NCBI RefSeq assembly: GCF_001435955.1
Contig: NZ_AYYT01000005.1
Location: 1-64,000 of the forward strand
Source: Ligilactobacillus salivarius DSM 20555 = ATCC 11741
GTDB taxonomy: Bacteria; Bacillota; Bacilli; Lactobacillales; Lactobacillaceae
DNA length: 64,000 bases
Reading direction: 5' to 3'
Of the stretch, positions 8,863-55,478 are shown piece by piece; positions within the stretch are counted from its first letter, which is position 1, and each line of letters begins with the position of its first letter. The translations under genes were made by a program, and so were the position numbers. The notes under the pieces are model-generated. The model was not told where the DNA came from. It ran no database searches and saw only the letters and a list, made by a program, of their open reading frames with translations.

Positions 8863-10586
8863 TGTTTGATAAGGGTTTATTAACCCTGACAGACATTAAA
8901 AAAACTATGAGAGGGCTTGTAGGACTTTATATCCTACAAGCTTTTCTTATAGTTGGTCAAGCTGTCAGTCTAGGGTTAGTGATTACACATTTATGGAATG
9001 GAAAACCGCTTAAGGAACAATTTATCTATATTATTGGTTTTATGATTTCTTTTGCCGGAAGAGAAGGACTACAGTGGTGGAGCAATCGCTGGTTAGACGA
9101 TTATGCACGTGTGGAAGCAAAAAAATTACGTAAAACTTTATTAGAAAAAGTCTTCATTTTAGGACCAGAATTGGTACAGAAACAAGGAACTGGACACATG
9201 GTCACTTTGACTTTAGATGGTATTTCTGAAGTTGAAGATTATATTCAACTAACACTTAGCAAAATGATTAGTATGATGATTGTGCCAATTGTAGTTTTAG
9301 CGATGGCCTTTTATCTGGATTGGGTATCAGGAGTAATCTTATTCTTCATCTATCCTTTAATTGTATTGTTTATGATTATTTTAGGATATGCAGCTAAGGC
9401 TAAGGCAGATAAACAATTTGTTTCTTTTCAACGTTTATCCAATCACTTTATTGATTCTTTACGAGGAATTGATACATTAAAATACTTTGGTTTAAGTAAA
9501 CGATACGCCAACAGTATTTATAAGACAAGTGAACGCTTTAGAAAGACTACAATGAGTGTATTACGCGTTGCAATTCTTTCAACATTTGCGTTAGACTTTT
9601 TTACAACTTTATCAATCGCGGTAGTAGCTGTATTTTTGGGATTACGTTTGATCAATGGTGAAATTACATTATTTCCAGCTTTAACAGTATTGATTTTATC
9701 GCCGGAATACTTCTTACCAATTAGAGCATTTGCTAACGATTATCATGCAACTTTAAATGGGAAAAATTCTTTCCACTCAATTCAAGAAATTATCAATAGT
9801 GCTGAAGTCAAAGAAAGTAAGTTAGAGCTTCATCAATGGCAACCTACAGATAGTTTGAAACTAGATAATATTGAGTTTGCTTATGATGATAATGCAGAGC
9901 CAGTTAAGTTTAATACAGAGTTTACAGGCTATCAAAAAGTTGGAATTATTGGAATGAGTGGGGCTGGTAAGACAACTCTAATTAATTTGTTAAGTGGCTT
10001 TTTACCTTTGAAAAATGGAAAATTTGAAATTCAAGGTAAAGAAACCACTGATTTAAATGAAGATGCATGGCGAAACCAAATTATCTATATTCCACAAAGC
10101 CCATATATCTTTGATAATACTTTGCGTTACAATATTGCTTTCCATACACCTGATGCTAGCGATGAAGAAATTATTGAAGCAATTAAAGCAGTAGGATTGG
10201 AAGATTTATTAGAAGAACTTCCAGATAAACTTGATACATTAATTGGTAATGGTCAAAGAACTTTAAGTGGTGGACAAGCTCAACGAATTGCTTTAGCTAG
10301 AGCATTTTTAGATAAGCAAAGAAAAGTATTGATTTTTGATGAACCAACAGCTCACTTAGATATTGAGACTGAATTGGAATTAAAGGAAAGAATGTTACCT
10401 TTAATGAAGGATAGATTGGTAATTTTTGCTACACATCGTCTACATTGGATGAAAGATATGGATAAAATCGTCGTCTTAAAGGATGGAAAAATTGCCGAAG
10501 AAGGACAATATGATGAATTGTTAGCTCATCAAGCATATTTCTATGAATTATTAAATCGAGCAAAAGGTGGTGAAAAGAATGTTTAA
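8862..10586 (+). CDS. cydD: Thiol reductant ABC exporter subunit CydD
   Basis: This 574-residue half-transporter has an N-terminal six-helix exporter domain (about 1-320) and a C-terminal ATPase. Walker A is GMSGAGKTT near residue 367, the signature is LSGGQAQR near 468, Walker B is VLIFDEPTAHLD near 490 and the switch His is in THRLH. CydDC exports glutathione/cysteine or haem-related reductant and is needed to assemble cytochrome bd. It overlaps cydB by one base and the next gene by eight. Confidence 0.92.
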   Translation: MFDKGLLTLTDIKKTMRGLVGLYILQAFLIVGQAVSLGLVITHLWNGKPLKEQFIYIIGFMISFAGREGLQWWSNRWLDDYARVEAKKLRKTLLEKVFILGPELVQKQGTGHMVTLTLDGISEVEDYIQLTLSKMISMMIVPIVVLAMAFYLDWVSGVILFFIYPLIVLFMIILGYAAKAKADKQFVSFQRLSNHFIDSLRGIDTLKYFGLSKRYANSIYKTSERFRKTTMSVLRVAILSTFALDFFTTLSIAVVAVFLGLRLINGEITLFPALTVLILSPEYFLPIRAFANDYHATLNGKNSFHSIQEIINSAEVKESKLELHQWQPTDSLKLDNIEFAYDDNAEPVKFNTEFTGYQKVGIIGMSGAGKTTLINLLSGFLPLKNGKFEIQGKETTDLNEDAWRNQIIYIPQSPYIFDNTLRYNIAFHTPDASDEEIIEAIKAVGLEDLLEELPDKLDTLIGNGQRTLSGGQAQRIALARAFLDKQRKVLIFDEPTAHLDIETELELKERMLPLMKDRLVIFATHRLHWMKDMDKIVVLKDGKIAEEGQYDELLAHQAYFYELLNRAKGGEKNV

Positions 10587-12339
10587 GAAAATTCCATTAT
10601 TACAAGAATTGAAAAAAGATACTTGGGTTAAGCCTTTCTTGAAAAAATACAAGAAAACTTTGGTACTAGCAATTTTCTTAGGAATTTTAACATTCTTTTG
10701 TGCAGGAGCCTTGATGTTTAATTCTGGTTATCTAATTAGTCGTTCAGCTACACGTCCAGAAAATATTTTGCTAGTTTATGTTCCAATTGTTTTGACACGT
10801 GCATTTGGTGTAGGTAGACCGGTATTCCATTATCTTGAAAGATTAACAAGTCATAACTGGGTTTTTAAAATGACTTCTGATTTACGTGTTAAGTTATACA
10901 AAGCTTTGGAAAAAGATGCTGTATTTTTTAAGAGTAAGTATCAATTAGGCGATGTCTTGGGATTGTTATCAGAAGATATTAATCACATCCAAAATTTGTA
11001 TCTAAGAACTATTTTCCCAACCTTTGTTGCATGGGGACTTTATGTATTTATTGTAATTGGAGTCGGTATTTTTTCAATTTGGATGGGACTTTTGATGTTA
11101 TTAATGATAGGCATTATGTTAGTAGCATTCCCAATCTGGTCAGTTATCGTAAATGGTGCTAGACAAGAATATGAAAAGAAAATAAAGAATGAATTATACC
11201 TAGACTTAACTGATAATATTGTTGGGATTACAGATTGGATTTTTGCTCAACGTGGTCGTGATTATGTTAAGCTACATGAACAAAATGAGGAAAAATTGAT
11301 AGATGTTCAAGAAAAACTACATCATTTTGATCAAATCAGAGATTATCTCTTACAGTTAGTGTTTATGTTGGTAGTTGTGAGTCTTATTTTATGGGGCGGT
11401 ACATACCTAGGTGGCAGTAATGGAGTATATACAGGTCTAGCTAACTGGATTGCTGCTTTTGTTTTGTGTCTTTTCCCTGTGGTTGATGCATTTGCAGTAA
11501 TTCCAGCTGCTTCACAAGAAACTAATGTATATAAGGATTCTTTAGTTAGATTAAATAGACTACAAGATAATTCATTTGAAGAAGAAAAATCAGAAATTAA
11601 ATTAATTGCACCTTATGATATTAAATTAGATAATGTGCATTTTAGATATGAAAATGGTAGTCGTGAAATCCTTAAGGGTATTAACTTAGATATATCTTCT
11701 GGCGATAAGTTAGCAATTTTAGGTCGAAGTGGTTCAGGTAAAAGTACGTTAGCTAACTTGATTAGAGGGGATAGAGTTGCTACTGAAGGTACGATTACTA
11801 TAAATGATATTGACGTAAGCAAAGTTGGCGATCAAATTTCCAATTATATTGGAGTAATACATCAGACTCCATATTTATTTAATACTACTATTTTAAATAA
11901 TCTTAGAATCGGAAATGAAGAGGCTACTATCGAGCAAGTATGGCAAGTGCTGGAACGTGTAGGCTTGAAAGATATGGTTAAAGCTTTACCACAAGGGCTG
12001 GAAACAATGGTGGACGAAGCCGGAATGCGTTTTTCTGGTGGTGAAAGACATCGAATGGCATTGGCAAGAATTTTGTTAAAAGATGCTCCAATTATCATTT
12101 TAGATGAACCAACTGTGGGCTTAGATCCATTAACTGAACAAGAAGTAATTTCAATTTTTAATCGTGAATTGAAAGATAAAACTTTAATTTGGATAACTCA
12201 TCACTTACAAGGTGTTGAAGCAATGGATCAAGTTATCTTTATTGAAGATGGAACTATTGAAATGCAGGGTAGTCCTGATTATTTGAGAAAAACAAACGAA
12301 CGTTATCAAAAGCTTAAAGCAATTGATGAAGGACGATAA
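10579..12339 (+). CDS. cydC: Thiol reductant ABC exporter subunit CydC
   Basis: This 586-residue exporter half-transporter is the partner of the upstream CydD. After six helices the ATPase shows GRSGSGKST (Walker A), FSGGERHRMALAR (signature) and IIILDEPTVGLD (Walker B). The ATG at 10579 is preferred because ggtggtg, six bases upstream, is a proper ribosome binding site. The two GTG codons at 10567 and 10570 fall within it. It ends just before a strong terminator, closing the operon. Confidence 0.92.
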   Translation: MFKKIPLLQELKKDTWVKPFLKKYKKTLVLAIFLGILTFFCAGALMFNSGYLISRSATRPENILLVYVPIVLTRAFGVGRPVFHYLERLTSHNWVFKMTSDLRVKLYKALEKDAVFFKSKYQLGDVLGLLSEDINHIQNLYLRTIFPTFVAWGLYVFIVIGVGIFSIWMGLLMLLMIGIMLVAFPIWSVIVNGARQEYEKKIKNELYLDLTDNIVGITDWIFAQRGRDYVKLHEQNEEKLIDVQEKLHHFDQIRDYLLQLVFMLVVVSLILWGGTYLGGSNGVYTGLANWIAAFVLCLFPVVDAFAVIPAASQETNVYKDSLVRLNRLQDNSFEEEKSEIKLIAPYDIKLDNVHFRYENGSREILKGINLDISSGDKLAILGRSGSGKSTLANLIRGDRVATEGTITINDIDVSKVGDQISNYIGVIHQTPYLFNTTILNNLRIGNEEATIEQVWQVLERVGLKDMVKALPQGLETMVDEAGMRFSGGERHRMALARILLKDAPIIILDEPTVGLDPLTEQEVISIFNRELKDKTLIWITHHLQGVEAMDQVIFIEDGTIEMQGSPDYLRKTNERYQKLKAIDEGR

Positions 12340-12342
12340 AAT

Positions 12343-12381
12343 AAAAGTCATCATTCTAAAAAATTAGAGTGATGACTTTTT
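12343..12381. terminator. Bidirectional terminator between cydC and the polyprenyl synthase gene
   Basis: A stem of about 16 bp (aaaagtcatcattcta with tagagtgatgactttt, one G-T pair) has a six-base loop and A/T flanks. It serves both convergent genes. Confidence 0.85.
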
Positions 12382-13366
12382 AATTTGTACGTTTTAATAA
12401 GACTTTAGTAAGTTTAGCAAGTTTCTTTTTAGCTGTAGAATCAGGTAATTTATCGATATCAATAAGTGCTTTATTAGTAAATTTAGCAGCTAAATCTTTA
12501 GCTTTTTCTACACCACCTAATTCAACGACTAAAGCTTGGATACGTTGAATTTCAGGTAAAGTTAGGTCTTGCTTTTTAGCTAATAAAGTATGTAATTCAT
12601 CTGAATCTTCATTAAGAACTAGCAATAATGGTAAAGAATAAACCCCAGTTGCCAAATCTTCGAGAGTTGGTTTATTAAGTCTTGATGCGTCAGAATAATC
12701 AAGAATATCATCTAAAATCTGGAAACTAATTCCGATATTTTGTCCGATTCTAGTAGCTAAGCTAACGGTTTGTGAAGAAGCTCCACCAAAATATGCTCCT
12801 TCAGCACTTGCTAAGCGGAAAAGATAGGCGGTCTTACCATTTACATTACGCAAATAATTCAAGAAAGTTTGTTGGGTATTGTAGCGATGTTTCATCTGAT
12901 TTAATTCGCCTAATAAAATTTTCTTCATAGTTCTTGAATTGATCTTAAAAAATGGTGTGTCTAAAACATTATCAGTGATTAAATCAAAGAAGACTGTAAA
13001 TAAATAATCACCAGCATAGACTGCAATATCCTTACCAAATTGGCTTTGGACACTAACTTCACCACGCCGTTTAGGAGAATCATCAATAATATCATCATGA
13101 ATAAGTGTGGACATATGTAAAACTTCAAGTGAAGTAGCTATATCAATGAGTTTTTTATCGTCTACACGATTTTGTGAGTCTGCTGTTAATTTGGTAAATA
13201 GTAAGAAAAAGGCTGGACGTAAAAATTTACCGCCATTGCTTGCCATTTTTGATAGAGCAGCTTGTAAATCAGGATAGTCGACAGAGATTTTATCTTGAAG
13301 ATTATGTTTAACTTTTTCGATATCTTTTGCCAATTCAGGGTACTGTAACCATAAATTGAATGCCAT
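12380..13366 (-). CDS. Polyprenyl (heptaprenyl-type) diphosphate synthase
   Basis: This 328-residue trans-prenyltransferase makes the isoprenoid tail for menaquinone/demethylmenaquinone. Both Asp-rich motifs are present: LIHDDIIDDSPKRRG (first, near residue 92) and QILDDILDY (second, near 218), plus GGKFLRP near the N-terminus. The small regulatory subunit found in Bacillus (HepS) is not next to it. The ATG at 13366 follows aaggtggtg. It is divergent from menA-ndh and probably shares the intergenic control region with them. It corresponds to dmkB of the lactobacillar electron-transfer loci. Confidence 0.9.
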   Translation of the reverse strand: MAFNLWLQYPELAKDIEKVKHNLQDKISVDYPDLQAALSKMASNGGKFLRPAFFLLFTKLTADSQNRVDDKKLIDIATSLEVLHMSTLIHDDIIDDSPKRRGEVSVQSQFGKDIAVYAGDYLFTVFFDLITDNVLDTPFFKINSRTMKKILLGELNQMKHRYNTQQTFLNYLRNVNGKTAYLFRLASAEGAYFGGASSQTVSLATRIGQNIGISFQILDDILDYSDASRLNKPTLEDLATGVYSLPLLLVLNEDSDELHTLLAKKQDLTLPEIQRIQALVVELGGVEKAKDLAAKFTNKALIDIDKLPDSTAKKKLAKLTKVLLKRTN

Positions 13367-13559
13367 TTTTTCACCACCTTAATGATAGTCTATGTTTCTA
13401 TTTTACCCTAAAATAGCCTGTGCAACCACGATGAATTAAAAATTATTTTGAAGAATATGATTTTGTAATGAGTAAATAAAAAATTGAGACAAATAAGCAA
13501 AATTATTTTGCTAAATATGAATTTTTTGAGAGATTATTGTAACTAATTACATAAGAATA

Positions 13560-13568
13560 TGGTAATAT
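13560..13568 (+). promoter_or_regulatory. Extended -10 of the menA-ndh promoter
   Basis: TG-G-TAATAT (TAATAT 13563-13568) lies about 45 bases before the menA start. A similar gtaatatatt is repeated at 13581-13590. No convincing -35. Confidence 0.35.
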
Positions 13569-13613
13569 ATTATGTAGAGGGTAATATATTTTATTTTACT
13601 AGGAGGCAGAGTT

Positions 13614-14519
13614 TTGTCTTTAAAAGTCTTCCTAGAGCTTGTTGAGATCAAAGCTAAAACGGCAAGTATTTTACCATTTTTGATAGGAATTTGTTTTAGT
13701 TATTACTACTATAACTCAGTACACTTAGGTCTATCGGTGGTATTTTTTATTGCGATGCTTTTGTTTAATATGGCAGTTGACGCATTAGATAATTATAATG
13801 ATTATCACCATGCAGTTGATAAACTAGAATATAAGCGTAAGACAAATATCATCGGAAGAGAAAATATCTCTCCTAAATTGGTATTTGTAATTTTAGCAAT
13901 TATGACAGTAATTGCTGCAATTATGGGACTATATCTAGTATATGTAACTGGCTTGCCATTGCTTTGGATGGGAATGTTTTGTTTTGCTGTAGGAATTTTC
14001 TATTCCTCAGGTCCACGTCCTTTATCTAGTTTACCTTTAGGAGAATTTTTCTCCGGTATTACAATGGGTTTTGTAATAAGCTTAATCTGTGTTTATCTTA
14101 ATTCATACCAAATATTTTCATGGCATTGGGAGAATCTAGCTAAGGTATTTTTGATTTCTTTACCAAATATTTTATGGATCTCTAATCTAATGTTAGCTAA
14201 TAATATTTGTGATTATGACGAGGATGAAAGAAATAATCGACACACAATTGTTCATTTTATTGGTGTAAAAAATGCTTTATTTGCATTTAGCTTGAAGAAT
14301 GTTTTAGCATTTGCTGCAATTATTCTATCTTTTTATCTCAAGCTAGCACCATGGACAAGTTTGTTAGCTTTGTTGGCAATACCATTTGTATATAAACAAG
14401 ATAGGATGTTGATGAAAGAACAAGTTAAATCCAAAACATTTAAGTGTGCAGTAAAGATTTTAGCTTTTGGTTCATTTATACAAGTTCTAACCTATTCTAT
14501 TGGATTATTATTTTTGTAG
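13614..14519 (+). CDS. menA: 1,4-dihydroxy-2-naphthoate polyprenyltransferase
   Basis: This 301-residue membrane protein of the UbiA family joins the polyprenyl tail to dihydroxynaphthoate, giving demethylmenaquinone. Both Asp-rich metal sites are visible: DALDNYNDYHHAVD near residue 56 and NNICDYDEDERNNRHT near 195. About eight hydrophobic helices follow one another. The start is TTG at 13614, with an ideal aggagg ribosome binding site. It is co-transcribed with ndh (13-base gap). No gene for making dihydroxynaphthoate (menFDHCEB) is present in the window. Confidence 0.92.
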   Translation: MSLKVFLELVEIKAKTASILPFLIGICFSYYYYNSVHLGLSVVFFIAMLLFNMAVDALDNYNDYHHAVDKLEYKRKTNIIGRENISPKLVFVILAIMTVIAAIMGLYLVYVTGLPLLWMGMFCFAVGIFYSSGPRPLSSLPLGEFFSGITMGFVISLICVYLNSYQIFSWHWENLAKVFLISLPNILWISNLMLANNICDYDEDERNNRHTIVHFIGVKNALFAFSLKNVLAFAAIILSFYLKLAPWTSLLALLAIPFVYKQDRMLMKEQVKSKTFKCAVKILAFGSFIQVLTYSIGLLFL

Positions 14520-14532
14520 GAGGTTTTAAACC

Positions 14533-15738
14533 ATGAAAGAAGTTTTAGTTTTAGGTGCTGGCTATGCGGGCTTAAAAGCAGTTAGAAATCTTCAAAAAGA
14601 AGTAGGAGACAACGCTCATATTACTTTAGTTGATATGAATGACTATCATTATGAAGCTACAGAATTGCACGAAGTTGCTGCAGGTTCTGTAGACAAGAAT
14701 AAAATTACATATCCAATTAAAGATGTTTTGAATAACAAGGTTAAATTTATTCAAGACGAAGTAGTTAAAGTAGATGCTGATAAGAAGACTGTTGAATTGA
14801 AGAATTCAGGTCAATTACGCTATGACTACTGTGTATTAGCTTTAGGTTTTGTATCTGAAACATTTGGCATTAAAGGTGCTTTAGATAATGCTTTACAAAT
14901 GACAGATATTGACCAAGCTGTTGCTATTCATGAACACATCGTTGAAACTATGAAGAAGTATCGTGAAACACAAGACAAGGAATACTTGAACATTGTTGTT
15001 TGTGGTGCTGGTTTCACAGGTATCGAATTAGCAGGTGCTTTAGTTGATGAACGTCCAAAATATGCTAAGCTTGCAGGTGTAGACGAATCTGAAATTTCTA
15101 TCACAATTGTTGAAGCTGCAACTAAGTTATTACCAATGTTTAGTGAAAATCTTGCAAACTACGGTGTATCATTAGTTAAGAGTTTAGGTGTTAAGATCAT
15201 GACGGGTTGCATGATTAAAGAAATCCAAGATGGTCGTGTAATGTACGCAACACAAGATAACGAAGAACTTCAAGCAGTTCCAGGTAAGACAATTATTTGG
15301 ACAACTGGTGTTAGTGGTAGTCCCGTTATGGGTGAATCTGGTTTCAAGGAACGTCGTGGTCGTGTAATTGTTAATGATAACTTACTTGATCCAGATCATG
15401 ATGATTTATACATCATTGGTGACGTATCTGCTCTTATGGATAAGGCAACAGATCGTCCATACCCAACAACAGCTCAAATTGCTACACGTATGGGTGCTTA
15501 TGTTGGACATGCAATTGCTCAACGTTTGAAGGGTGAAGTTCCAGAACCATTTAGTTACAACTCCTTAGGTACAGTTGCTTCTGTTGGTAACACACATGCC
15601 TTTGGTCTTGTAGGTAAGAAAGAATACAAAGGTTTCCCAGCTTCATTCGTCAAGAAGATGATTATGAACAAATCATTAGCTGATATTGGTGGGGCAAAAG
15701 AATTATTTGCTAAAGGTCGTTTCGACTTATATCACTAG
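14533..15738 (+). CDS. ndh: Type II NADH dehydrogenase
   Basis: This 401-residue flavoprotein oxidises NADH and reduces the quinone pool without pumping protons. It has an FAD-binding GAGYAGLKA at the N-terminus, a second nucleotide-binding GAGFTGIELAG near residue 157, TTGVSGSP near 257 and the FAD-contacting IIGDVSALMD near 296. The basic, hydrophobic C-terminus probably holds it to the membrane. An aggagg ribosome binding site precedes ATG 14533. With MenA, the prenyl synthase and cytochrome bd it makes a minimal respiratory chain. Confidence 0.94.
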   Translation: MKEVLVLGAGYAGLKAVRNLQKEVGDNAHITLVDMNDYHYEATELHEVAAGSVDKNKITYPIKDVLNNKVKFIQDEVVKVDADKKTVELKNSGQLRYDYCVLALGFVSETFGIKGALDNALQMTDIDQAVAIHEHIVETMKKYRETQDKEYLNIVVCGAGFTGIELAGALVDERPKYAKLAGVDESEISITIVEAATKLLPMFSENLANYGVSLVKSLGVKIMTGCMIKEIQDGRVMYATQDNEELQAVPGKTIIWTTGVSGSPVMGESGFKERRGRVIVNDNLLDPDHDDLYIIGDVSALMDKATDRPYPTTAQIATRMGAYVGHAIAQRLKGEVPEPFSYNSLGTVASVGNTHAFGLVGKKEYKGFPASFVKKMIMNKSLADIGGAKELFAKGRFDLYH

Positions 15739-17155: not shown

Positions 17156-17188
17156 AAAACGTTTGCGTGAATACGTAGACGTTTTTTT
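17156..17188 (+). terminator. Terminator of the NCS2 permease gene
   Basis: The stem aaaacgt...acgtttt with an inner gcgt/acgt helix is followed by seven T, beginning five bases after the stop codon. Confidence 0.75.
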
Positions 17189-17535
17189 GATTTGCATATT
17201 AAAATTAATAAATTAAAATAATATTTTTTCGCTATATAAATTAATATCAAAAAATAAATAATGATTTATTGAAAAAAATTGCTGATATACGAAATTTTAT
17301 ACTTATTACTCACTTTGAGAAATATAAACGTTTATTAATAGTATCATTAAATATTCAGTTGTGATACTTGGCAAAAAAACTAGGATATAATTAGTAATCC
17401 TTATTAAAAATAGCGATTATATCACTAAAAAATGATGATTGACAACTAGAGCAAATATTTATATTATCTAATAGTACGAGTAATAATTTAAGAGTGAAAG
17501 ATAATTTATTTTAGTATTTAGGTGGTGAAACACTA
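17189..17535. other. Control region of the c-di-GMP exopolysaccharide operon
   Basis: There are no genes in this AT-rich stretch. It holds an inverted repeat AGTATCA (17340-17346) / TGATACT (17362-17368), a possible operator lying 70 bases upstream of the -35 box, and the promoter listed separately. Confidence 0.45.
17439..17467 (+). promoter_or_regulatory. Promoter of the c-di-GMP exopolysaccharide operon
   Basis: TTGACA (17439-17444), exactly 17 bases, TATTAT (17462-17467). It is one of the best sigma-A matches in the window, about 70 bases upstream of the cyclase start. Confidence 0.65.
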
Positions 17536-18711
17536 TTGTACAAGGCGATTATTTTGTCTTTAGTGATGCCTCTGATGATAGTTAGCTTATTATACAGTCA
17601 GTGGACTTTTTATAAAAGTTATATTGAGGAACGTTTAAGTAAGGTTCAAAGTTATGTTGCTGTATTATTAATCTTTTGCTTATATCAATTCTTTATTATA
17701 GAATTTTGTCGCTCCACAATTGATGGCTTGTATTATCAATATTCAATGGCGATTTTGAGCTTCTATTTATCAAATTACATGCGTGAAAAATATTTAGGAC
17801 ATGTAATGTTAGTGCTTGCGCCATTATTTGATAATTTCTTTCTATATACTATCAACGATATTCCTGCAGCAGCGATGCTTAATTTTGCTTGGGAAGGTGC
17901 ACTATTACTAATTATATGTGAAATCTTCATTAGAATTGAAGCACTGCCACTGATCTACCGCTGTACATTAGAATTCCTAATTGTTAACCAAATTCCACCA
18001 TTGGTATATTTTGTATTGCCTGGTAAATATCATGCGATGAGTGCAACACATTTTACATTTGCATCAATAATAGATGTAACCTTAGGGACGTTATTAATGT
18101 TTGCAGTGGCAAATGTTTACGTTAACTTCCTAACTAAGCAATATGAAGAATTGAGAATGGCAAGATATGATGTATCTCATGATGGACTAACAAACTTGTT
18201 AAATTATGATTCATTTCATAGTCATATGAATGAGTTATCACAAAAGAGCAGTAGACATCAAATAATTTGCATCTTAGATATTGATGATTTTAAAAAGTTT
18301 AATGATACTTATGGTCATCTTGAGGGTAATGATGTATTGGTTTATTTTACTAAACGTTTGTTTGCTGAAGTTAAGGCTCATTTTGGTGAATTAGCTTCAG
18401 TATATCGTTTTGGTGGAGAAGAATTTTGTGTTTCTGTACATGGAGTAACAGTTGAAGATTGTCTAGAGATGACAGATAAACTAGCTGAAGAATTACGAAC
18501 TAAAGATTATGTAACAGCAACCGGTGATAAAATTACAGTCACATTTTCTGGAGGAATTGCCCTAGGATGTGATAAGAAAGATATCAAAACTGTTTTAAGA
18601 GAGGCCGATAAAGCACTCTATTACAGTAAACGACATAAAAAGGGGAGTGTAACCTGTGCTAAAGATTTGGAAAAGAAGTCTACTGATACTGATATGCCTC
18701 TTAGCTACTAA
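17536..18711 (+). CDS. Membrane diguanylate cyclase (active GGEEF, no I-site)
   Basis: This 391-residue protein has about six membrane helices in residues 1-205 and then a GGDEF domain. DGLTNLLNYDSF begins near residue 216, the metal-binding DIDDFKKFNDTYGH near 249, and the active-site GGEEF is at 293-297. All catalytic residues look intact, so it should make cyclic di-GMP from two GTP. The product-inhibition I-site, R-x-x-D at the position before GGEEF, reads G-E-L-A and is absent. The start is TTG at 17536 with taggtggtg upstream. It is the first gene of the operon and overlaps the next by 56 bases. Confidence 0.9.
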   Translation: MYKAIILSLVMPLMIVSLLYSQWTFYKSYIEERLSKVQSYVAVLLIFCLYQFFIIEFCRSTIDGLYYQYSMAILSFYLSNYMREKYLGHVMLVLAPLFDNFFLYTINDIPAAAMLNFAWEGALLLIICEIFIRIEALPLIYRCTLEFLIVNQIPPLVYFVLPGKYHAMSATHFTFASIIDVTLGTLLMFAVANVYVNFLTKQYEELRMARYDVSHDGLTNLLNYDSFHSHMNELSQKSSRHQIICILDIDDFKKFNDTYGHLEGNDVLVYFTKRLFAEVKAHFGELASVYRFGGEEFCVSVHGVTVEDCLEMTDKLAEELRTKDYVTATGDKITVTFSGGIALGCDKKDIKTVLREADKALYYSKRHKKGSVTCAKDLEKKSTDTDMPLSY

Positions 18712-19711
18712 TTTTCCAAATTTAGTTAAGGCAGATACAGTTACTTCTAGTGATGCACTGGTTCATTTCATAGATAATAAGCTAACAGGAAAATATGGAA
18801 TATATACTAATTATTTAGCAAAAATAGGCAATGATGATACTTTAGCAACAGGTCATCAATATTTAAGTGAATCATCTGGATATTATCTGCAATATTTAGC
18901 TGAAACAAAGCAAAATAAAAAGTTTAGAGCATTTTATGCGTTAACGAAGAAAACTTTTTATCGTCAAGGAGTATTCTTATATCGTTTTGATGCCAAACAT
19001 CCAGATAAATATCAAGTTAATGCAACAGTGGATGATTTGCGTATTATATCCGCATTAGTGACTTATGATAAAGTTAATCACACAAAAAAGTACCAGTCTG
19101 AAGTTAAAGATCTATACAAGAAATTAAGTATAAGAGTGAAACAAGCAGGCTTATTGACTGATATGTATAGTCTTGATAGTAAGACACATAATCAGTTGGT
19201 TACTTTGTGCTACCAAGATTTATCTGTTTTGAAGAAATTAGATTCAAGGAGTTATCACAAAGCTTTACGAGTAGTGGAAGAGGGTAAAATTAGTCGTGAA
19301 GTGCCATTATATTATCAAAGTTATAACTTAAAGGATAAAAAATATGCTAAAGATAAGTTGGTAACTCCTCAGCTTTTAATAACATTTTTACATTTAGCTG
19401 AGGTAGATAAGTTACCTAAAGATAGTTTGAATTGGGTAAAACAAAAAGTAGACACACAAACTTTATACAATGCTTATTCTGTTACAGGAAAGGCAGAAGA
19501 TAAGTCTACTTCAGCAGCTAATTATGCAATTGCGATGATGATAGGGAATGCAGTTCATGATGACCAATTGTATGATGCTGCAAAAAAAGTTTTACTATCG
19601 ATGCAAGTTACAGATAAGAAATCTGAAATTTACGGAAGTTTTGGAGATAGTAAGACTAAACAGGTATATTCATTTAATGAATTAAATGCTTTAGTAGCAT
19701 TAAATCAATAG
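18656..19711 (+). CDS. Secreted glycoside hydrolase family 8-like protein
   Basis: This 351-residue protein has a signal peptide (MLKIWKRSLLILICLLATNF, cleavage near VKA-DT) and an (alpha/alpha)6-type helical body. The GH8 signatures are recognisable. SESSGY around Glu72 matches the catalytic acid block SE-x-x-GY, and ATVDDLRI (Asp126-Asp127) matches the second acidic block. GH8 enzymes (BcsZ, and PssZ of Listeria) trim the polymer made by the neighbouring synthase. The GTG start at 18656 has aaggggagtg upstream and lies inside the end of the cyclase gene, implying translational coupling. The substrate is unknown and probably the polymer of this locus. Confidence 0.8.
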   Translation: MLKIWKRSLLILICLLATNFPNLVKADTVTSSDALVHFIDNKLTGKYGIYTNYLAKIGNDDTLATGHQYLSESSGYYLQYLAETKQNKKFRAFYALTKKTFYRQGVFLYRFDAKHPDKYQVNATVDDLRIISALVTYDKVNHTKKYQSEVKDLYKKLSIRVKQAGLLTDMYSLDSKTHNQLVTLCYQDLSVLKKLDSRSYHKALRVVEEGKISREVPLYYQSYNLKDKKYAKDKLVTPQLLITFLHLAEVDKLPKDSLNWVKQKVDTQTLYNAYSVTGKAEDKSTSAANYAIAMMIGNAVHDDQLYDAAKKVLLSMQVTDKKSEIYGSFGDSKTKQVYSFNELNALVALNQ

Positions 19712-19722
19712 GAATGTGAGTA

Positions 19723-21183
19723 ATGATAGAAAAATTTAGGAAAAATATTTCTCCGCCCCTACTAGCCTGTGTTTTAGCAGCAGTGATAGTGGGGTATTTG
19801 TTATTTGTATCTCCAATTAATGGATATGCAGATAACGGGGATTTTGCCAGGGTAATTTATATTAATGGAATCTACCCATTAGATACGAAGAATTACCAGT
19901 ATACAACTTATTTAACGCAACATTATGGGTTATTTAAATACTACAATGAACATATTGCGATGCTATTTTCTTCACAGGGTATTTTTGTAAAAACAGCAGT
20001 ATTGTTAAATAAGTTATTCTACAGCAAAACAGTGTTTGATATTAGGTTTATGGGATTAGTTTATTACGTCTTTTATTTAGGGGCAATTTACTTACTAACT
20101 CTAGCTGTAACAAACTCAAATAGGCGCAAAAATGTAGATTATGTAATAGCACTAATTGTAGTTTTGATGTTTGCTGATTCATCGCTGACATTGTATTTTA
20201 ACTCTTTTTTCGCTGAACCAGTTATGATAATAGCAATGATGTATATTACAGCTTCTTTATTATTACTGATGAAAAAACATTTTGCTCGTAGTTGGTATAT
20301 GCTAGCAGTGTATTTTTTGTCATCATTAGCATTGGTAACTGTTAAACAGCAAAATGCACCATTAGCATTGAGTTTAGTTGTAGTTACAATCGGAATTTAT
20401 TTTGTATATAGAAATAAATTGTCTAGATTACTAATTCCAATTTCTTGTTTAATCTTATTGGGATCAGGGATTGCGACTTATGTAATGATTACAGATCAAT
20501 TTAGTAATATTAATAGTTATCAATCAATGACTCGAGGAGTAATGTTAAAAGAACAAGATCCGGGTAATTCTCTAGAAAAGGGTGGGATATCTCGTCAATA
20601 TGGATTGTTGAAAGGGGATATTTATACCCAAACTTATGCCGCAACATCTATTAAGTCTAAAAACATAACCAAGGATTTTATTCCAAAATATAATTTTGCT
20701 TGGATTTTGAAATATTATCTAACACATAAGCAACAATTTAATGAAATGTTAGACGTAGCTGCACGTGATGGTTACCTAGTACAAATTAAAGCGGTCGGTG
20801 ATTTTACTAAAAAATCTGGTGCAAAACCGCATCAACAAGTGCAATACTTTACTTTATATGGAGCGATGATGAAGGCTTTCTTCCCTAAAAAGTTTGCTTT
20901 CTATATGACATTATGTGTAGTTTTAGTTGCTTTATATATAGTAATTTTTGTTATTAGCGTAAAAAGTAATGAAATGGAATCTGCAATTAAAGTTTTTATG
21001 ATAATTGGATATACAACAATGGTGATAGGGACCTTTATTACAGCGGTTGTTGGTGACGGTGATGCTGATTTAGCTAAGCATTTATTGATGGTACCTTTAT
21101 CATTAAACTTAATTTTCTTGCAGATAATTTCAGATGTCTTACATCATAATTTTTGGCATCCTTCGAGGGAGGGTGAATATTGA
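19723..21183 (+). CDS. Polytopic membrane protein, GT-C-like (PssA-like position)
   Basis: This 486-residue protein has roughly ten hydrophobic helices and a large non-membrane segment (about residues 260-390). The first outer loop reads INGYADNGDFARV. An acidic N-G-D-F motif just after helix 1 is reminiscent of GT-C-fold glycosyltransferases, but I cannot assign a family. It lies between the GH8-like hydrolase and the deacetylase-like gene and shares the operon, so a role in making or modifying the exopolysaccharide is likely. In Listeria the first pss gene also encodes a large membrane protein of unclear function. Confidence 0.6.
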   Translation: MIEKFRKNISPPLLACVLAAVIVGYLLFVSPINGYADNGDFARVIYINGIYPLDTKNYQYTTYLTQHYGLFKYYNEHIAMLFSSQGIFVKTAVLLNKLFYSKTVFDIRFMGLVYYVFYLGAIYLLTLAVTNSNRRKNVDYVIALIVVLMFADSSLTLYFNSFFAEPVMIIAMMYITASLLLLMKKHFARSWYMLAVYFLSSLALVTVKQQNAPLALSLVVVTIGIYFVYRNKLSRLLIPISCLILLGSGIATYVMITDQFSNINSYQSMTRGVMLKEQDPGNSLEKGGISRQYGLLKGDIYTQTYAATSIKSKNITKDFIPKYNFAWILKYYLTHKQQFNEMLDVAARDGYLVQIKAVGDFTKKSGAKPHQQVQYFTLYGAMMKAFFPKKFAFYMTLCVVLVALYIVIFVISVKSNEMESAIKVFMIIGYTTMVIGTFITAVVGDGDADLAKHLLMVPLSLNLIFLQIISDVLHHNFWHPSREGEY

Positions 21184-22751
21184 AAAGATATTTATTATTA
21201 ATTTGTTTGTCAATTCTCAGCATCTTGAGTATACATATTCCAGTACAGGCAGATGATAATCGACCAGTTTTGTTAGTGTATGATAGTGAAAATGTCTACT
21301 ATAACGGTTCTAAAAAAATTGATTCTGTTCAAAGAATGTTAACGGCAGACGGGTTAAAGGTAAAAACAGTTATGTTAGAAAATTACCGAAGTGGAGAATT
21401 GAGCGACAACAAATATCGGGGAGTAGTAACTCTGATTAATTGGCAGGAAGCTGATTTAAGTAATGATAGCTTTACACATGATAGAGCTAAATTCTCAGGT
21501 ACTAAATTGCATATTGGGCCTAATTTACAAGATGATGAATTAGAAGGCTTACATGCAAAAAAAGGTATGATTATTAAGCAGCAGTTAACACTGTCAGATG
21601 ATGGAATAACAGAACAGATACCATATACTAATCGAATGGAATATTTGGTAGACGTTGCTGGTAGTGACAAATATGGTGTTTTGAATACGCAAAATGTAGG
21701 AAATCAAAAAACTTTACCATATGGGGTCAAAGTAGATAGTAATGCCTTCCTACCATTTTGGAATACTAGTGGTTTAGCAGTTAATTGTGAAGAGAAATTA
21801 ATTGCTGATTTGTTTAATACGAAGACAGATAGTAGGCCATTATTAGTAATTAATAATGTTACACCAACAAGTAATCTAGAATATCTTGATAAGTTAGTTG
21901 ATGATTTATATCGTAATAATATTCCTTTTGCAGTCAGTGCAACTAATGTCGAAGGTAATACCAATCAATTTGCTTATAAGAAATATATGTATTCTTTAAG
22001 AATAATTGAATTGAAAAATGGAATTATTTTTATGCGAGTACCATATTTATATTCCTATACTGGCAAAGAAATTAATGCGCAGAATTTAAAGGCAACAATG
22101 AGTGAACGTCTGCAATTAATGGTAAGAAGTGGTGTTTATCCAACTGGTTTATCTACGCCTAATCATTGGAATCAGGATGCAGTTTTAGGAAAAGTCGGAT
22201 TAAAATCAGCTTCTAATGTTTTGCTACTGCCAGATCCTAAAACATATCCAAAAGTTAAGCAAACGGATTATAGTCAAGAATTTGATAAGGCATATTATGT
22301 AATGTCTTTAAAAGATTTGGATAAGGCTAAAACGACGGTATCTTTGACTAAAGCAAATAATTTAAATTACACTTTACCGACAGCCTTGAATATAAAAATG
22401 CCACGAACATTGTCGGAATTACGTAAGGTTGAGAAGAGTGTCTCGGGATCAGAATTAAATTGGGAAAATCCAGCTGCAGAAGATAATTCAAGAGAAATGA
22501 ATTTTGCAAAAATGAAGTTGGAATACCATGCTGGAACGTATTTTGTTAATGGTAATGAACAAAATATTAACGATACTGCTCCAGTTCAAAAGAAACATAA
22601 ACACAAAGAATACCAAGAAACTGGTTTGAATTTGATCTTATCTTATCAAGGTAAATTCTTAACAGTCTTCATTTTAGTAACTTTGATAGGCTTTGTCTTA
22701 CTTATTTATAAAGGTCGCAAAGTTTATTGGGATAAATTTAAAAGAAAGTAG
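21180..22751 (+). CDS. DUF2334-like secreted/membrane polysaccharide deacetylase-like protein
   Basis: This 523-residue protein has an N-terminal signal peptide (MKRYLLLICLSILSILSIHI, then QADDN). A long extracellular part follows, with RPVLLVYDSENVYYNG, a central LVINNVTPTSNLEYLDKLVDDL (quoted in part) and GLSTPNHWNQD near residue 325. A single C-terminal helix and a basic tail complete it. The central part resembles DUF2334, a branch of the NodB deacetylase superfamily, though canonical metal ligands are not all obvious. The start is TTG at 21180, overlapping the preceding stop by four bases. It probably modifies the polymer outside the cell. Confidence 0.65.
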   Translation: MKRYLLLICLSILSILSIHIPVQADDNRPVLLVYDSENVYYNGSKKIDSVQRMLTADGLKVKTVMLENYRSGELSDNKYRGVVTLINWQEADLSNDSFTHDRAKFSGTKLHIGPNLQDDELEGLHAKKGMIIKQQLTLSDDGITEQIPYTNRMEYLVDVAGSDKYGVLNTQNVGNQKTLPYGVKVDSNAFLPFWNTSGLAVNCEEKLIADLFNTKTDSRPLLVINNVTPTSNLEYLDKLVDDLYRNNIPFAVSATNVEGNTNQFAYKKYMYSLRIIELKNGIIFMRVPYLYSYTGKEINAQNLKATMSERLQLMVRSGVYPTGLSTPNHWNQDAVLGKVGLKSASNVLLLPDPKTYPKVKQTDYSQEFDKAYYVMSLKDLDKAKTTVSLTKANNLNYTLPTALNIKMPRTLSELRKVEKSVSGSELNWENPAAEDNSREMNFAKMKLEYHAGTYFVNGNEQNINDTAPVQKKHKHKEYQETGLNLILSYQGKFLTVFILVTLIGFVLLIYKGRKVYWDKFKRK

Positions 22752-22759
22752 GAAAGTAG

Positions 22760-24007
22760 TTGTCATTACTTGATATATTATTATTTATCAGTATTTTTTC
22801 AATTTGGACAATTTTAGCGGTTAATGTTGTCTTGATTTTTGCTGGTTATATGAATTATTTAACAATGAAAGTTCATGATAAATTACCAGCAGATGCACCA
22901 TTCGTAACAATTATGGTTCCTGCACATAATGAAGGTATTGTAATTGTTAGAACGGTAAAATCATTGCTAGCATTGGACTATCCTCAAGATAAATATGAAA
23001 TTATTGTAATTAATGATAATTCATCTGACAATTCAGCTGAACTTTTAGCACAGGTACAAAGTAAGTATCCTAACCGAAATCTTAAAATTATCAATACTGA
23101 TAATATAACCGGGGGAAAAGGGAAGTCTAATGCTTTAAATATTGGTTTAAAAGAGGCCAAAGGATCTATTATCGCAGTTTATGATGCTGATAATACTCCT
23201 GAAAAACAGGCATTACGTATTTTAGTATCTGAATTATTAGCTGATGATAAAGCTGGAGCAGTAATCGGAAAATTCAGGACACGTAATAAGAATGCTAGTT
23301 TATTAACACGATTTATTAATATTGAAACTCTGTCATTTCAATGGATGGCACAAGCAGGTAGAAAAAAACTATTTAATTTATGTACAATACCAGGAACTAA
23401 TTTTGTTATTCGTCGTAGTTTATTGGAGAAAATTGGTGGTTGGGACGTAAAAGCCCTAGCTGAAGATACAGAGATAAGTTTTAGAACTTATTTAATGGGT
23501 TATCACATTAATTTTCAACCGGCAGCTGTTACCTGGGAGCAAGAGCCACAAACTTTTGTGGTTTGGTTTAGACAGAGAACGAGATGGGTTAAAGGTAATA
23601 TTTATGTGATTTTAAAAAACTTGAAATTACTATTTAATCCTAAGAGTAAGGCTATTCGCTTTGATTTGATATACTTTTTATCAATTTATTTTCTATTAAT
23701 GACATCTTTAGTTATTTCAGATACAGTTTTTGTTCTATCAGTATCTGGATTAGTTCATACATCAATTAATGGTTTTAGTAATTGGTTATGGTTCTTTGCG
23801 GTTATCTTATTTGTATTAGGAACTTTTATAACTATTACAACAGAAAAAGGTGAGATGACACTCCAAAATTTATTAATCATTGTCTTGATGTATCTAGTCT
23901 ATAGTCAAATGTGGTTAGTAGTAGCCTTTTATGGCATGATCATGTATGTTCAAGAACAAATTTTTCATAAAAAAGCTAAATGGTATAAAACACAGAGGTA
24001 TGAATAG
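22760..24007 (+). CDS. BcsA-like processive glycosyltransferase, family 2, no PilZ
   Basis: This 415-residue inner-membrane synthase has one helix, a GT2 catalytic domain and four C-terminal helices. Catalytic motifs are complete: NDNSSD near residue 91, DADN (Asp142/Asp144), AEDTE (Glu235-Asp236) and QRTRW (272-276), the Q-x-x-RW of processive synthases. Unlike BcsA it has no PilZ domain, so it cannot bind cyclic di-GMP itself. The start is TTG with aggaaag upstream. It matches PssC of Listeria in position and plan. Confidence 0.88.
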   Translation: MSLLDILLFISIFSIWTILAVNVVLIFAGYMNYLTMKVHDKLPADAPFVTIMVPAHNEGIVIVRTVKSLLALDYPQDKYEIIVINDNSSDNSAELLAQVQSKYPNRNLKIINTDNITGGKGKSNALNIGLKEAKGSIIAVYDADNTPEKQALRILVSELLADDKAGAVIGKFRTRNKNASLLTRFINIETLSFQWMAQAGRKKLFNLCTIPGTNFVIRRSLLEKIGGWDVKALAEDTEISFRTYLMGYHINFQPAAVTWEQEPQTFVVWFRQRTRWVKGNIYVILKNLKLLFNPKSKAIRFDLIYFLSIYFLLMTSLVISDTVFVLSVSGLVHTSINGFSNWLWFFAVILFVLGTFITITTEKGEMTLQNLLIIVLMYLVYSQMWLVVAFYGMIMYVQEQIFHKKAKWYKTQRYE

Positions 24008-24008
24008 A

Positions 24009-26081
24009 ATGAAGAAAAAATTATTCATTGCGATTTTATCAATGTTAGTTTTGATGATTTCGTGGTGTACACAAGTTAAGGCAGATGATATGAAGAGTTA
24101 TACGCAACCATTTCAAAATTCAACGCAAACTCTTTCAGGGAAATCTGTGTCAGATAATACATATTTTACAAAAATCGATTACTGGGATGTTAAGAAAGCA
24201 ACTTTGAACTTGAGTTACCAAGTTTCACAAATTGCTGATGATCAAACATCTGACATTACAGTATCAATTAATGGGGTTAAATTTTACTCATTTAGACCTG
24301 AAATAAAAGATGGTGTTCAAACTAAGCAAATTGATATTCCTTTAAATTTAATTAAAGGGGCAAATAATCTTAAAATTTACGGACAAATTTTGAATAAGTC
24401 TGATAAATCAACGGTTGGTGTACAAACACCTGCTAACTGGTTGACAATTTATGAAGAGTCAAATGTTAACTTCCAATATAATTTAAAGCAACCAGATTAT
24501 TATTTAAAGTCTTTCTATAACCATTTTTCAGGGGCAGATACAATTTCATTTGGACAATCTGTTATTGCAGTTCCTCAACAACCTAGTGATGCTGAGTTGT
24601 CAGCTGCAACTTATGCTTTAACTGGGGTAACTAGAACAATCGCAACAGATACAGACAAAGTTAGAATTTTACCATACAATGATGGTAGAGTTAAGGATGC
24701 AGATTATCGCGTTATTATCGCCAAATATGACAATTTACCTAAGAATTATAAGAGTAAGTTTTCGGTAGATAGATTGAAGAATCGTGGTTGTTTAAGATTA
24801 GTGTATAGTAAGAATAAATACACATTGATAATAACAGCCTTAAATGATGAAATGTTGCAAAAAGCAACTCGTTTTATAGCTAATACAGAATTGATGACAG
24901 AAACTAAAAAGCCAGTTAAGTATGTAAGATCTAAGACAGCAACTTATATGTCAAGCTTACATTACGATGGCAGTTACCAATTGACTAATCAAGGAGCAAC
25001 TTTAACTGGAAGTGGACATCACGAAGAAACATTCTTTGTTGCTTTACCAGCTAGTCAAAGTAACTCCTATGGTAGTAAGGTAAAATTGAGTTTGAAGTAT
25101 TCAAAGAACTTGAATTTTAAAAACTCTTTAGCAACTGTATATATCAATAACCGCAACATTGGCAGCTATAAGTTAACTAAAGATAATGCTGATAATGATG
25201 AGCTAACCTTCAATATTCCTAATAATATGAAAATAGGTAGTGGTTTTTCTGTCAGAGTAGCTTTTGATTTAGAACCAAGTCAAATTACTAAGTCAGATAA
25301 TAGTGAAACACCTTGGGCAGCAATCAATACTAACTCAAAGATTTTTGTTAAGTCTATTGAAAAGAACGACATCCTATTTTCAAATTATCCAAGTTTATTC
25401 ATTAGAAACAATACTTATAGTAACTTAGCAGTTGTTAAGCCTAGAAAGATGACAACAAATGATTTTGAAGCATTATCTAATATTTTCAATTTGATTGGTA
25501 TCTATGCTAAGAGCAATACTGGAAAAATTGAATTCTATAGTCAACAACCTGATGATGAAACATTAAAGAACAGTAATGTAATCGTATTGGGAACACCTAG
25601 TCAAAATTCTATGATTAAGAACTTAAATGACAAACTTTATTTCCAATATAATAAAAAATATACAAGCTTTATCTCTAATGAAAAATTGAGTATCGAATAT
25701 GATTATGGTAAGACAATGGGTACAGCTCAATTATTGCGCTCTCCTTACAATGATAAGAGAGGTATGTTAGTTGTAACAGGTATTACATCTAAAGACGTTT
25801 ATCTAGCATCAACACAAATTAATTATCAAAAGACCATTGTTGAACATGGTGGCGATGCAATTGTGGTGGATAATGATAATAATATTTATAATTATCGTTT
25901 CAAGAAGAAAGCTGATTTAGACAAAAAGGTATCTTTGAAGCAAACAATTCACAAAAATACCAAGTTGATCATTTACTTAGTAATTGCTTTAATCTTTGTT
26001 GCTTTGCTAGCTGCAGCAATCTTTATGGTTCTATGGAAAAATAATCTGTTAAGAAAGGATAAAAATAATGAGAAGAAATGA
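24009..26081 (+). CDS. BcsB-like exopolysaccharide synthase subunit
   Basis: This protein of about 690 residues has a signal peptide (MKKKLFIAILSMLVLMISW, then VKADD), a long extracellular beta-rich region and a single C-terminal helix (about residues 655-680). Two carbohydrate-binding-like jelly-roll segments alternate with flavodoxin-like segments, as in BcsB; KATLNLSYQVSQI and VTVSINGVKF-type stretches mark the first. ATG 24009 is chosen because gagg lies ten bases upstream; the ATG at 24000 is too close to it. BcsB supports the synthase and passes the glucan out. It overlaps the next gene by 14 bases. Confidence 0.82.
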   Translation: MKKKLFIAILSMLVLMISWCTQVKADDMKSYTQPFQNSTQTLSGKSVSDNTYFTKIDYWDVKKATLNLSYQVSQIADDQTSDITVSINGVKFYSFRPEIKDGVQTKQIDIPLNLIKGANNLKIYGQILNKSDKSTVGVQTPANWLTIYEESNVNFQYNLKQPDYYLKSFYNHFSGADTISFGQSVIAVPQQPSDAELSAATYALTGVTRTIATDTDKVRILPYNDGRVKDADYRVIIAKYDNLPKNYKSKFSVDRLKNRGCLRLVYSKNKYTLIITALNDEMLQKATRFIANTELMTETKKPVKYVRSKTATYMSSLHYDGSYQLTNQGATLTGSGHHEETFFVALPASQSNSYGSKVKLSLKYSKNLNFKNSLATVYINNRNIGSYKLTKDNADNDELTFNIPNNMKIGSGFSVRVAFDLEPSQITKSDNSETPWAAINTNSKIFVKSIEKNDILFSNYPSLFIRNNTYSNLAVVKPRKMTTNDFEALSNIFNLIGIYAKSNTGKIEFYSQQPDDETLKNSNVIVLGTPSQNSMIKNLNDKLYFQYNKKYTSFISNEKLSIEYDYGKTMGTAQLLRSPYNDKRGMLVVTGITSKDVYLASTQINYQKTIVEHGGDAIVVDNDNNIYNYRFKKKADLDKKVSLKQTIHKNTKLIIYLVIALIFVALLAAAIFMVLWKNNLLRKDKNNEKK

Positions 26082-26928
26082 GAATTATAGTTTAAATACT
26101 GATATTTATATTATCTTGTTGTTAGTTTGTTCAATCATGACAGCTATTTTCGTTGGAATTTCATCTAATTTGATGATTTTGAATTGTGTTTTCTTAGCAA
26201 TTACTTGTTTCTTAGTATTGATTACTTATTTTCTCGGCCTATTAGCTGGATTAATCTTTAATTTACTGTTTGTCTTTATTCAGGGAAGTTATGTTTTATA
26301 TGCAGATGTGGTCTTAGGAAAAGAACTAGATTTATGGTTAATTGTTTGGATTTTCTTACCATTGATTTGGTCATTATTAGTAAGCTTTATGACACGAAAT
26401 CTTCAAAAACTACAAGAAGAAAATCTAAGTCTTAGAGAAAGTAATGCACGTAATCTGGGGTATAATAGTGAAACAGACTTGCGTACCATGAGATCTTATC
26501 GTCAAGATGCAGAAGTATTTATTGAAACTCATAAACGTTTTGACATTCCTGTTTCAACGGGAATAATTTCAATTCGTTACTTCCATCAAATTATGAATAT
26601 TTTAACAGAAGAACAACATCATCATTTGATCAAAAGATTATCAGATATTTTATCTGAGAGTTTTAGAAATAATGATATTGTCTACAGTATTGATGGCGTA
26701 GGTGGTGTGCCTCAATGGGGAGTTCTATTATTCGCGGATTATGATGGAGCAATGGTGGCGATGGATAGAATTAAGCAAAGAGTAACGACTTTACTACGTG
26801 AAGATGAGGAATTAGGAAAGTATGATATTCAAATTTCTATTGGAGTTGTTGAATACAATGAAGATAAGATAAAGAGTGTCAGCCAATTTATTGACTCTGC
26901 TCAGCATGTACTTCAATACGACGTTTAG
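26068..26928 (+). CDS. Membrane c-di-GMP receptor candidate: degenerate GGDEF with intact I-site
   Basis: This 286-residue protein has four membrane helices (about 10-105), a short coiled coil (about 112-130) and a GGDEF-like domain. The active-site loop is destroyed: where GG[D/E]EF belongs the sequence reads DGVGGVPQW. Four residues earlier the I-site is kept as R200-N-N-D203, at exactly the spacing seen in active cyclases (R-x-x-D then five residues then the GGDEF loop). This pattern is known from PelD and from PssE of Listeria, which bind cyclic di-GMP and switch on the synthase. Translation is coupled to the BcsB-like gene. Confidence 0.85.
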   Translation: MRRNENYSLNTDIYIILLLVCSIMTAIFVGISSNLMILNCVFLAITCFLVLITYFLGLLAGLIFNLLFVFIQGSYVLYADVVLGKELDLWLIVWIFLPLIWSLLVSFMTRNLQKLQEENLSLRESNARNLGYNSETDLRTMRSYRQDAEVFIETHKRFDIPVSTGIISIRYFHQIMNILTEEQHHHLIKRLSDILSESFRNNDIVYSIDGVGGVPQWGVLLFADYDGAMVAMDRIKQRVTTLLREDEELGKYDIQISIGVVEYNEDKIKSVSQFIDSAQHVLQYDV

Positions 26929-26959
26929 TTATATAAGTTGAATTGTATATTGAAAATTA

Positions 26960-26988
26960 TTTACATAAAGATGATATAAGTATATAAT
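26960..26988 (+). promoter_or_regulatory. Separate promoter of the EAL phosphodiesterase gene
   Basis: TTTACA (26960-26965), 17 bases, TATAAT (26983-26988), about 40 bases before the ATG. It lets the phosphodiesterase be expressed apart from the synthase operon. Confidence 0.6.
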
Positions 26989-27028
26989 TTAGCTAGTGGG
27001 ATTAGACTTGACTAGAGGGGGAGATGGA

Positions 27029-27775
27029 ATGAATTCTACTTTAAACATAGCACCAAATAATCTAACTTTAGCATTTCAACCTATAGTCAGAATAGTTAGT
27101 GAAGATACATTTGAAATATCTGATTACGAGGTATTGTTGCGGTCGAAGGACAAGAAGAGTTTCCCTGCTGCAATATTTGAAAAGATTGTAAATAATGAAA
27201 GTTGTAATCAAATGTTTTGGGGATGGTTTACTCCTGAAATAAAGAAAGTTTTAACAGACAAAAAAGTTAGAGTAGATATAAATATTGATCCACATCAATT
27301 TTTGTATCAATCAACCTGGGATTTTTTGAACAAAATGGTTGAGTACAACCAACAAATTACAATTGAAATTACAGAGCGTGTATCGCAAGAATTAAACTTG
27401 AAAAAGGGTTTAATTGATACAGTTAAGCATATAAAAGATTTAGGCTATCGTGTAGCTTTAGATGATATTAGTTCTGGACAATATAGTTTTAAAGTTGTTC
27501 AAGAAAATATCAAAGGTATTGATAGGGTTAAGTTATCCTTGTTAATTTTTAATGACGATAGCACAGACTCAAAGACGAAAAATCTCTTCATTATGTCTTG
27601 GATAAATTTTGCTAAGGCCAATAATGTTGAGTTGGTAATTGAAGGTATTGAGGATAATATCGCAGCTAAAGAGATGTTGTGCCACAATATCAAGTTGCAA
27701 CAAGGATTTTTCTGGCAAGTACCTCAAGATTATATAAGTCCCAAAGAAGTACATAATTTTAAAGAATTTGAATAA
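27029..27775 (+). CDS. EAL-domain c-di-GMP phosphodiesterase
   Basis: This 248-residue stand-alone cytosolic EAL domain carries all the usual catalytic positions. The signature is E34-V-L rather than EAL, followed by the Asn block INIDPHQF, the Glu in EITERV, D145-D146 in LDDISSG, the Lys in RVKLS, E205-G-I-E and the Gln in QQGFFW. It should hydrolyse cyclic di-GMP to pGpG and oppose the cyclase at 17536. ATG 27029 has an ideal agagggggag ribosome binding site; the GTG at 26996 has none. It has its own promoter and is followed by two hairpins. Confidence 0.88.
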   Translation: MNSTLNIAPNNLTLAFQPIVRIVSEDTFEISDYEVLLRSKDKKSFPAAIFEKIVNNESCNQMFWGWFTPEIKKVLTDKKVRVDINIDPHQFLYQSTWDFLNKMVEYNQQITIEITERVSQELNLKKGLIDTVKHIKDLGYRVALDDISSGQYSFKVVQENIKGIDRVKLSLLIFNDDSTDSKTKNLFIMSWINFAKANNVELVIEGIEDNIAAKEMLCHNIKLQQGFFWQVPQDYISPKEVHNFKEFE

Positions 27776-46128: not shown

Positions 46129-46132
46129 GTGG

Positions 46133-46795: not shown

Positions 46796-46799
46796 GCGT

Positions 46800-46811
46800 G
46801 GGGGGGGGGGG
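46800..46811 (+). repeat. Homopolymer run of 12 G at the ribosome binding site of the dehydratase gene
   Basis: Twelve consecutive G lie in otherwise AT-rich DNA, between the wze stop (46793-46795) and the ATG at 46816. The run itself must serve as the ribosome binding site. Runs of this length change by slipped-strand mispairing. Sequencing error in the length is possible. Confidence 0.9.
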
Positions 46812-46815
46812 AACT

Positions 46816-48630: not shown

Positions 48631-48701
48631 GAAAATCCTAAGAATATTGAAGCTCAGATGCAAAAAATTGTACCGAACTTCAAGTTTCAGGAGGTGGTAG
48701 G

Positions 48702-49898: not shown

Positions 49899-49947
49899 TG
49901 AGAAGTTTGAGTGGGATTTTGAGTGGAAGTTAAGGGGATGATGAAAT

Positions 49948-51182: not shown

Positions 51183-51195
51183 GAGGTGATTAGTA

Positions 51196-55474: not shown

Positions 55475-55478
55475 GTAT

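Follow-up and report, generated by a model that had tools for sequence, protein, structure and literature searches.

Positions 17536 to 27775 of the window (the whole 64,000-nucleotide stretch analyzed here, from a Ligilactobacillus genome of 1.98 Mb) very probably encode a Pss/Yda-type exopolysaccharide (EPS) synthase operon that is activated by cyclic di-GMP (c-di-GMP) and has its own dedicated signaling circuit. This assignment draws on gene content, gene order, sequence motifs, and the lack of other c-di-GMP genes in the genome; polymer chemistry, input signal, and phenotype are what we infer. The operon type is already known, and the new element is a comparison of the receptor I-site with cyclase presence, a natural experiment spanning about 110 genomes in which, once the signal is lost, the binding site of the receptor erodes but the subunit is otherwise retained. 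The features of the locus are as follows:

17156..17185, + strand: terminator-like hairpin 3′ of the upstream permease (13-pair stem, then a T run; pattern match only)
17439..17467, + strand: promoter-like site TTGACA-17-TATTAT upstream of dgc (11/12 consensus positions)
17536..18711, + strand: Dgc, predicted membrane diguanylate cyclase (Pfam GGDEF, 101 bits, E=5.5e-29; at least 4 hydrophobic segments)
18656..19711, + strand: GH126 glycosidase, PssZ/YdaJ type (PDB 3REN, E=7.6e-36; 6R2M [PssZ], E=3e-6)
19723..21183, + strand: WsfD-like polytopic membrane protein (NF051875 WsfD, 477 bits vs a cutoff of 80; 9 hydrophobic segments)
21180..22751, + strand: DUF2334/PssB/YdaL-type extracytoplasmic protein (family membership; predicted model, Foldseek)
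22760..24007, + strand: processive GT2 synthase, PssC/YdaM type (PF13641, 117 bits; GT2, E=2e-33; 415 aa)
23946..26081, + strand: BcsB-like partner, PssD/YdaN type (PF03170, 123.5 bits, E=1.2e-35)
26068..26928, + strand: RecE, putative degenerate-GGDEF receptor, PssE/YdaK type (weak Pfam GGDEF match, E=1e-4; 4 TM helices)
26960..26988, + strand: promoter-like site TTTACA-17-TATAAT just 5′ of pde (11/12 consensus positions)
26996..27775, + strand: Pde, predicted stand-alone EAL phosphodiesterase (PDE; Pfam EAL, 76 bits, E=3e-21; 3KZP, E=5e-23)

The eight genes lie where the initial annotation had placed them, all on the forward strand, in the order dgc, GH126, WsfD-like, DUF2334-like, GT2, BcsB-like, recE, and pde, and every reading frame is full length. 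The middle six (GH126 to recE) constitute the Pss/Yda cassette; from the WsfD-like gene to recE, its five genes follow the Listeria pssA-E order. Adjacent genes overlap or almost abut as far as recE, including an overlap of dgc with the GH126 gene, and a 67-bp gap then precedes pde. The BcsB-like protein probably starts at 24009, as the first 22 residues of the longer frame are missing in the Limosilactobacillus ingluviei orthologue. The terminator-like hairpin sets the locus apart from the upstream permease, whereas the promoter-like site within the 67-bp gap suggests that the eight genes may not form one transcript; promoter-like sites in the window did not exceed in total those in shuffled sequence, so that both this site and the one upstream of dgc are weak evidence. 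An Rfam search of the window returned no matches. Just upstream of the locus, positions 6427-15738 carry respiratory genes (cytochrome bd, CydCD, polyprenyl synthase, UbiA family prenyltransferase, and NADH dehydrogenase).

The pairing of a c-di-GMP maker (GGEEF) with a breaker (EAL), claimed from the first reading of the sequence, is borne out by intact catalytic motifs in both proteins. Dgc has a full GGDEF domain, of the active type by sequence, with RFGGEEF and the metal-binding Asp in DIDDFKKFND; at the I-site position it reads GELA instead of RxxD, so product inhibition there is not expected. Pde, which probably starts at the ATG at 27029, judging by overlap and the ribosome binding site, retains all of the catalytic Glu, Asn, Glu, Asp-Asp, Lys, Glu, and Gln positions in the alignment. 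Its loop-6 motif is divergent (DDISSGQYS), as is loop 6 of the active Lactobacillus acidophilus PdeA (PMC6123363). Dgc is thus a likely cyclase and Pde a likely phosphodiesterase.

RecE had been proposed as the receptor, a dead GGDEF protein with an I-site, and its features agree with that role: DGVGG stands in place of GGDEF, while R200-x-x-D203 (RNND) is in register with the RxxD of active GGDEF domains. The predicted RecE model (pLDDT 88.6) matched GGDEF folds in the PDB (E about 1e-8). R200 and D203 align to R202 and D205 of Bacillus subtilis YdaK, where substitution of either residue abolishes EPS (PMC5422440) and the R202A protein neither binds c-di-GMP nor interacts with DgcK (PMC7064775). 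Listeria PssE binds c-di-GMP with a Kd of 0.79 μM and is essential for Pss EPS (PMC4125290). By analogy with PssE and YdaK, RecE would bind c-di-GMP and be needed for EPS.

The cassette proteins called for some relabeling. The GH126 protein carries an N-terminal signal or anchor, and the equivalents of Glu84, Asp136, Arg139, and Tyr194 (residues named in PMC7479077) are conserved in the alignment. It had been called GH8-like, an older naming of PssZ; the matches to 3REN and 6R2M place it in GH126. The WsfD-like gene occupies the place of Listeria pssA, and we know of no WsfD-like gene in the B. subtilis yda operon. The 21180 protein, initially annotated as a DUF2334-like deacetylase, has no Pfam match of its own, DUF2334 being weakly matched in 18 of its 31 family members. 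Foldseek searches with its AlphaFold model returned PelA and CE4 folds at low TM-scores (PelA, the top match in the PDB, had a query TM-score of 0.36), and the Asp-Asp and His-His metal ligands of CE4 enzymes are absent from this protein and from every aligned family member. What remains is a weakly deacetylase-like fold, and deacetylase catalysis is not supported. Similarly, the "BcsA-like" synthase is indeed a GT2 synthase (62-88% identical to its orthologues), but the functional label does not carry over: a profile search detected no PilZ domain in its 415 residues, and it scores higher with the PgaC/IcaA model than with CelA (174 vs 82 bits).

We propose that membrane-bound Dgc would make c-di-GMP, which would bind R200-x-x-D203 of the membrane receptor RecE; the bound receptor would then activate the membrane-located complex of the GT2 synthase and its BcsB-like partner, and the stand-alone EAL enzyme Pde would remove the signal. 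Outside the cell, the GH126 enzyme may trim or release the polymer, and the WsfD-like protein probably helps to decorate a HexNAc-type chain. Genome-wide profile searches found GGDEF only in Dgc and RecE, EAL only in Pde, and no PilZ or HD-GYP genes. A survey for further GGDEF, EAL, and PilZ genes had been suggested as a check, and its outcome supports a circuit that looks dedicated to this locus, divergent receptors and riboswitches lying beyond the scope of such profiles. The description of the locus as a self-contained module stands insofar as the cyclase and PDE genes flank the cassette and are the sole copies found in the genome; the arrangement is not unique, since cyclase and PDE genes also lie near the cassette in a minority of relatives, in differing layouts. 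The locus is therefore ordinary in kind and unusually compact in wiring. The predicted cyclase, phosphodiesterase, and receptor each occur once, which gives this small lactic acid bacterium a near-minimal circuit; the link from signal to polymer could be studied in it free of the redundancy that is usual elsewhere.

The gene order of the window was repeated in more than 100 loci and is thus not a chance arrangement. The six-gene order was present in nearly all of ∼80 named loci and occurs in Lactobacillaceae, Enterococcus, and Paenibacillus. Full c-di-GMP circuits had been thought rare in lactobacilli, a claim that fails against Pfam GGDEF matches in 203 of 399 Lactobacillaceae genomes (23 of 40 genera) and against the published, related circuit of L. 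acidophilus (PMC6123363). BcsB was found in 83 of the 399 genomes and in 42 of 396 sampled from the order to which the family belongs.

Receptor sequences were gathered for nearly all cassette genomes (about 110). Of the 97 genomes that have a GGDEF gene, 89 keep RxxD, whereas it has been lost from every one of the 13 with either no GGDEF (12 genomes, absence meaning no Pfam match) or a weak match alone (G017). Besides G017, these comprise six Ligilactobacillus (loci L126-L130 and L183, in genomes G269, G330, G296, G340, G392, and G384) and six Enterococcaceae (L206-L211); EAL, searched for in the six Ligilactobacillus genomes of this set, is likewise absent from them. In the GGDEF-less loci, xTGHE, SGKG, DDRF, KQSV, and other sequences replace RxxD. 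Among 42 receptor columns conserved in the presence of a cyclase, the largest drop in its absence was at D203 (0.94 to 0); R200 and position 130 shared second place (0.92 to 0), whereas the conservation of several TM positions and of YDV at the C terminus stayed near 100%. In three closely related cyclase-less Ligilactobacillus, the six cassette genes are intact and under strong purifying selection (dN/dS, 0.006-0.07; RecE, 0.038-0.051). Split cassette frames, indicating decay, were seen in G269, G330, and G607.

The association between cyclase and I-site is strong when kinship is ignored (Fisher p = 8e-12), but it rests on only 3-4 independent events: on a FastTree phylogeny with some long branches, cyclase presence changed 3 times and the I-site 4 times, and paired tests were unable to reach significance. 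Nor is the link absolute, as eight GGDEF genomes lack RxxD, namely, seven of the Secundilactobacillus type (g21) and G593. The g21 loci without the I-site (L146, L156, L157, L158, L164, L144, and L187) have an intact EAL gene directly downstream of the cassette. A degenerate EAL protein as substitute receptor in these genomes was considered and rejected, because their EAL proteins keep the catalytic residues. The Ligilactobacillus cassettes without a cyclase branch with those of Enterococcaceae and so probably represent one older variant that moved between hosts, which weakens the idea of several independent co-losses of cyclase and I-site. On balance, we lean slightly toward the existence of a c-di-GMP-free Pss/Yda synthase, in which Enterococcaceae and some Ligilactobacillus would keep the cassette and its receptor subunit after losing the I-site in genomes without cyclases. 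If so, receptor and signal are separable, and the window holds the signal-controlled form with its own cyclase and PDE.

Such relatives also lend some weight to a different reading of the window itself, in which polymer synthesis does not depend on c-di-GMP, RecE has a chiefly structural role, and Dgc and Pde have other targets. Retention of the cassette in the 13 genomes with no or weak GGDEF, the low dN/dS of RecE in the three Ligilactobacillus, the near-complete conservation of its TM and YDV residues, and the seven g21 genomes that lack RxxD despite having GGDEF proteins would all fit. However, both I-site residues are present in RecE of the window, the flanking cyclase and PDE are intact, and the RecE orthologues YdaK and PssE need the I-site or c-di-GMP (PMC5422440, PMC4125290). 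We therefore regard this reading as quite improbable and retain c-di-GMP activation of the synthase.

Very improbable, too, is a coincidental placement of the cyclase and PDE genes next to the cassette, with targets elsewhere (a second EPS system, for example). The closest cassette, that of L. ingluviei (69-88% identity per protein; G+C, 0.45 vs 0.56 in its upstream flank), has neither dgc nor pde beside it, and a dgc-pde pair in that species flanks a different GT2; in addition, a Wzx/Wzy-type EPS cluster lies ∼17 kb downstream of the locus in the window. Against this stand the absence of any other predicted receptor (PilZ) from the genome, the repeated presence of cyclase or EAL genes next to the cassette in other genera, and the overlap of dgc with the GH126 gene. 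A decayed, nonfunctional locus is extremely improbable given eight full-length frames and intact catalytic residues in Dgc, GH126, and Pde. The L. ingluviei pair (L223:4764-9639; 27% and 32% identical) encloses, besides the GT2 gene, two genes whose small products are membrane-bound or secreted; this looks like a second EPS locus linked to c-di-GMP in that species. The Wzx/Wzy-type cluster of the window (45385-63392) encodes a chain-length regulator, a kinase, epimerases, transferases, and a flippase; two of its genes, arranged in tandem (58446-59561 and 59613-60746), are almost identical.

The parallel with Listeria drawn at the outset holds well for the signal-controlled synthase proposed here. 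In Listeria monocytogenes, where pssA-E is accompanied by pssZ, dgcA-C, and pdeB-D (PMC4125290), the same five genes occur in the same order (WsfD, DUF2334, GT2, BcsB, and RecE), and this order recurs in genomes that fit Listeria (f8/g47), with GT2 62-66% and RecE 29-30% identical to the window proteins. Both systems have a PssE-type I-site receptor, a GH126 PssZ-like enzyme, an EAL PDE, and a membrane cyclase lacking the I-site (Lmo1911 in Listeria; PMC6123363). Listeria differs in having three cyclases and three PDEs encoded elsewhere, whereas the window cassette includes the GH126 gene and is bordered by a single cyclase gene and a single PDE gene. B. subtilis ydaJKLMN with DgcK (PMC5422440, PMC7064775) shares the GH126-like enzyme, the degenerate-GGDEF receptor with RxxD, the GT2 and its partner, and a cognate membrane cyclase; its receptor gene is instead second in the operon, and the species has three cyclases, PdeH, and the PilZ receptor DgrA. 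In L. acidophilus (dgcA-pdeA and gtsA-gtsB-pdeB; PMC6123363), a cyclase without an I-site, an EAL PDE, and a GT2 synthase are also present, encoded in neighboring operons, but BcsB, DUF2334, and GH126 genes are not described there, the synthase is of a different type, and the receptor is the degenerate EAL protein PdeB. Among the cassette loci, a degenerate EAL gene adjoins the receptor gene in L149, L179, L181, L105, and L059 and possibly encodes a second c-di-GMP receptor like PdeB. In L192, L195, and L205 (f2/g54), the gene directly 3′ of the receptor gene codes for a bifunctional GGDEF-EAL protein of ∼800 aa.
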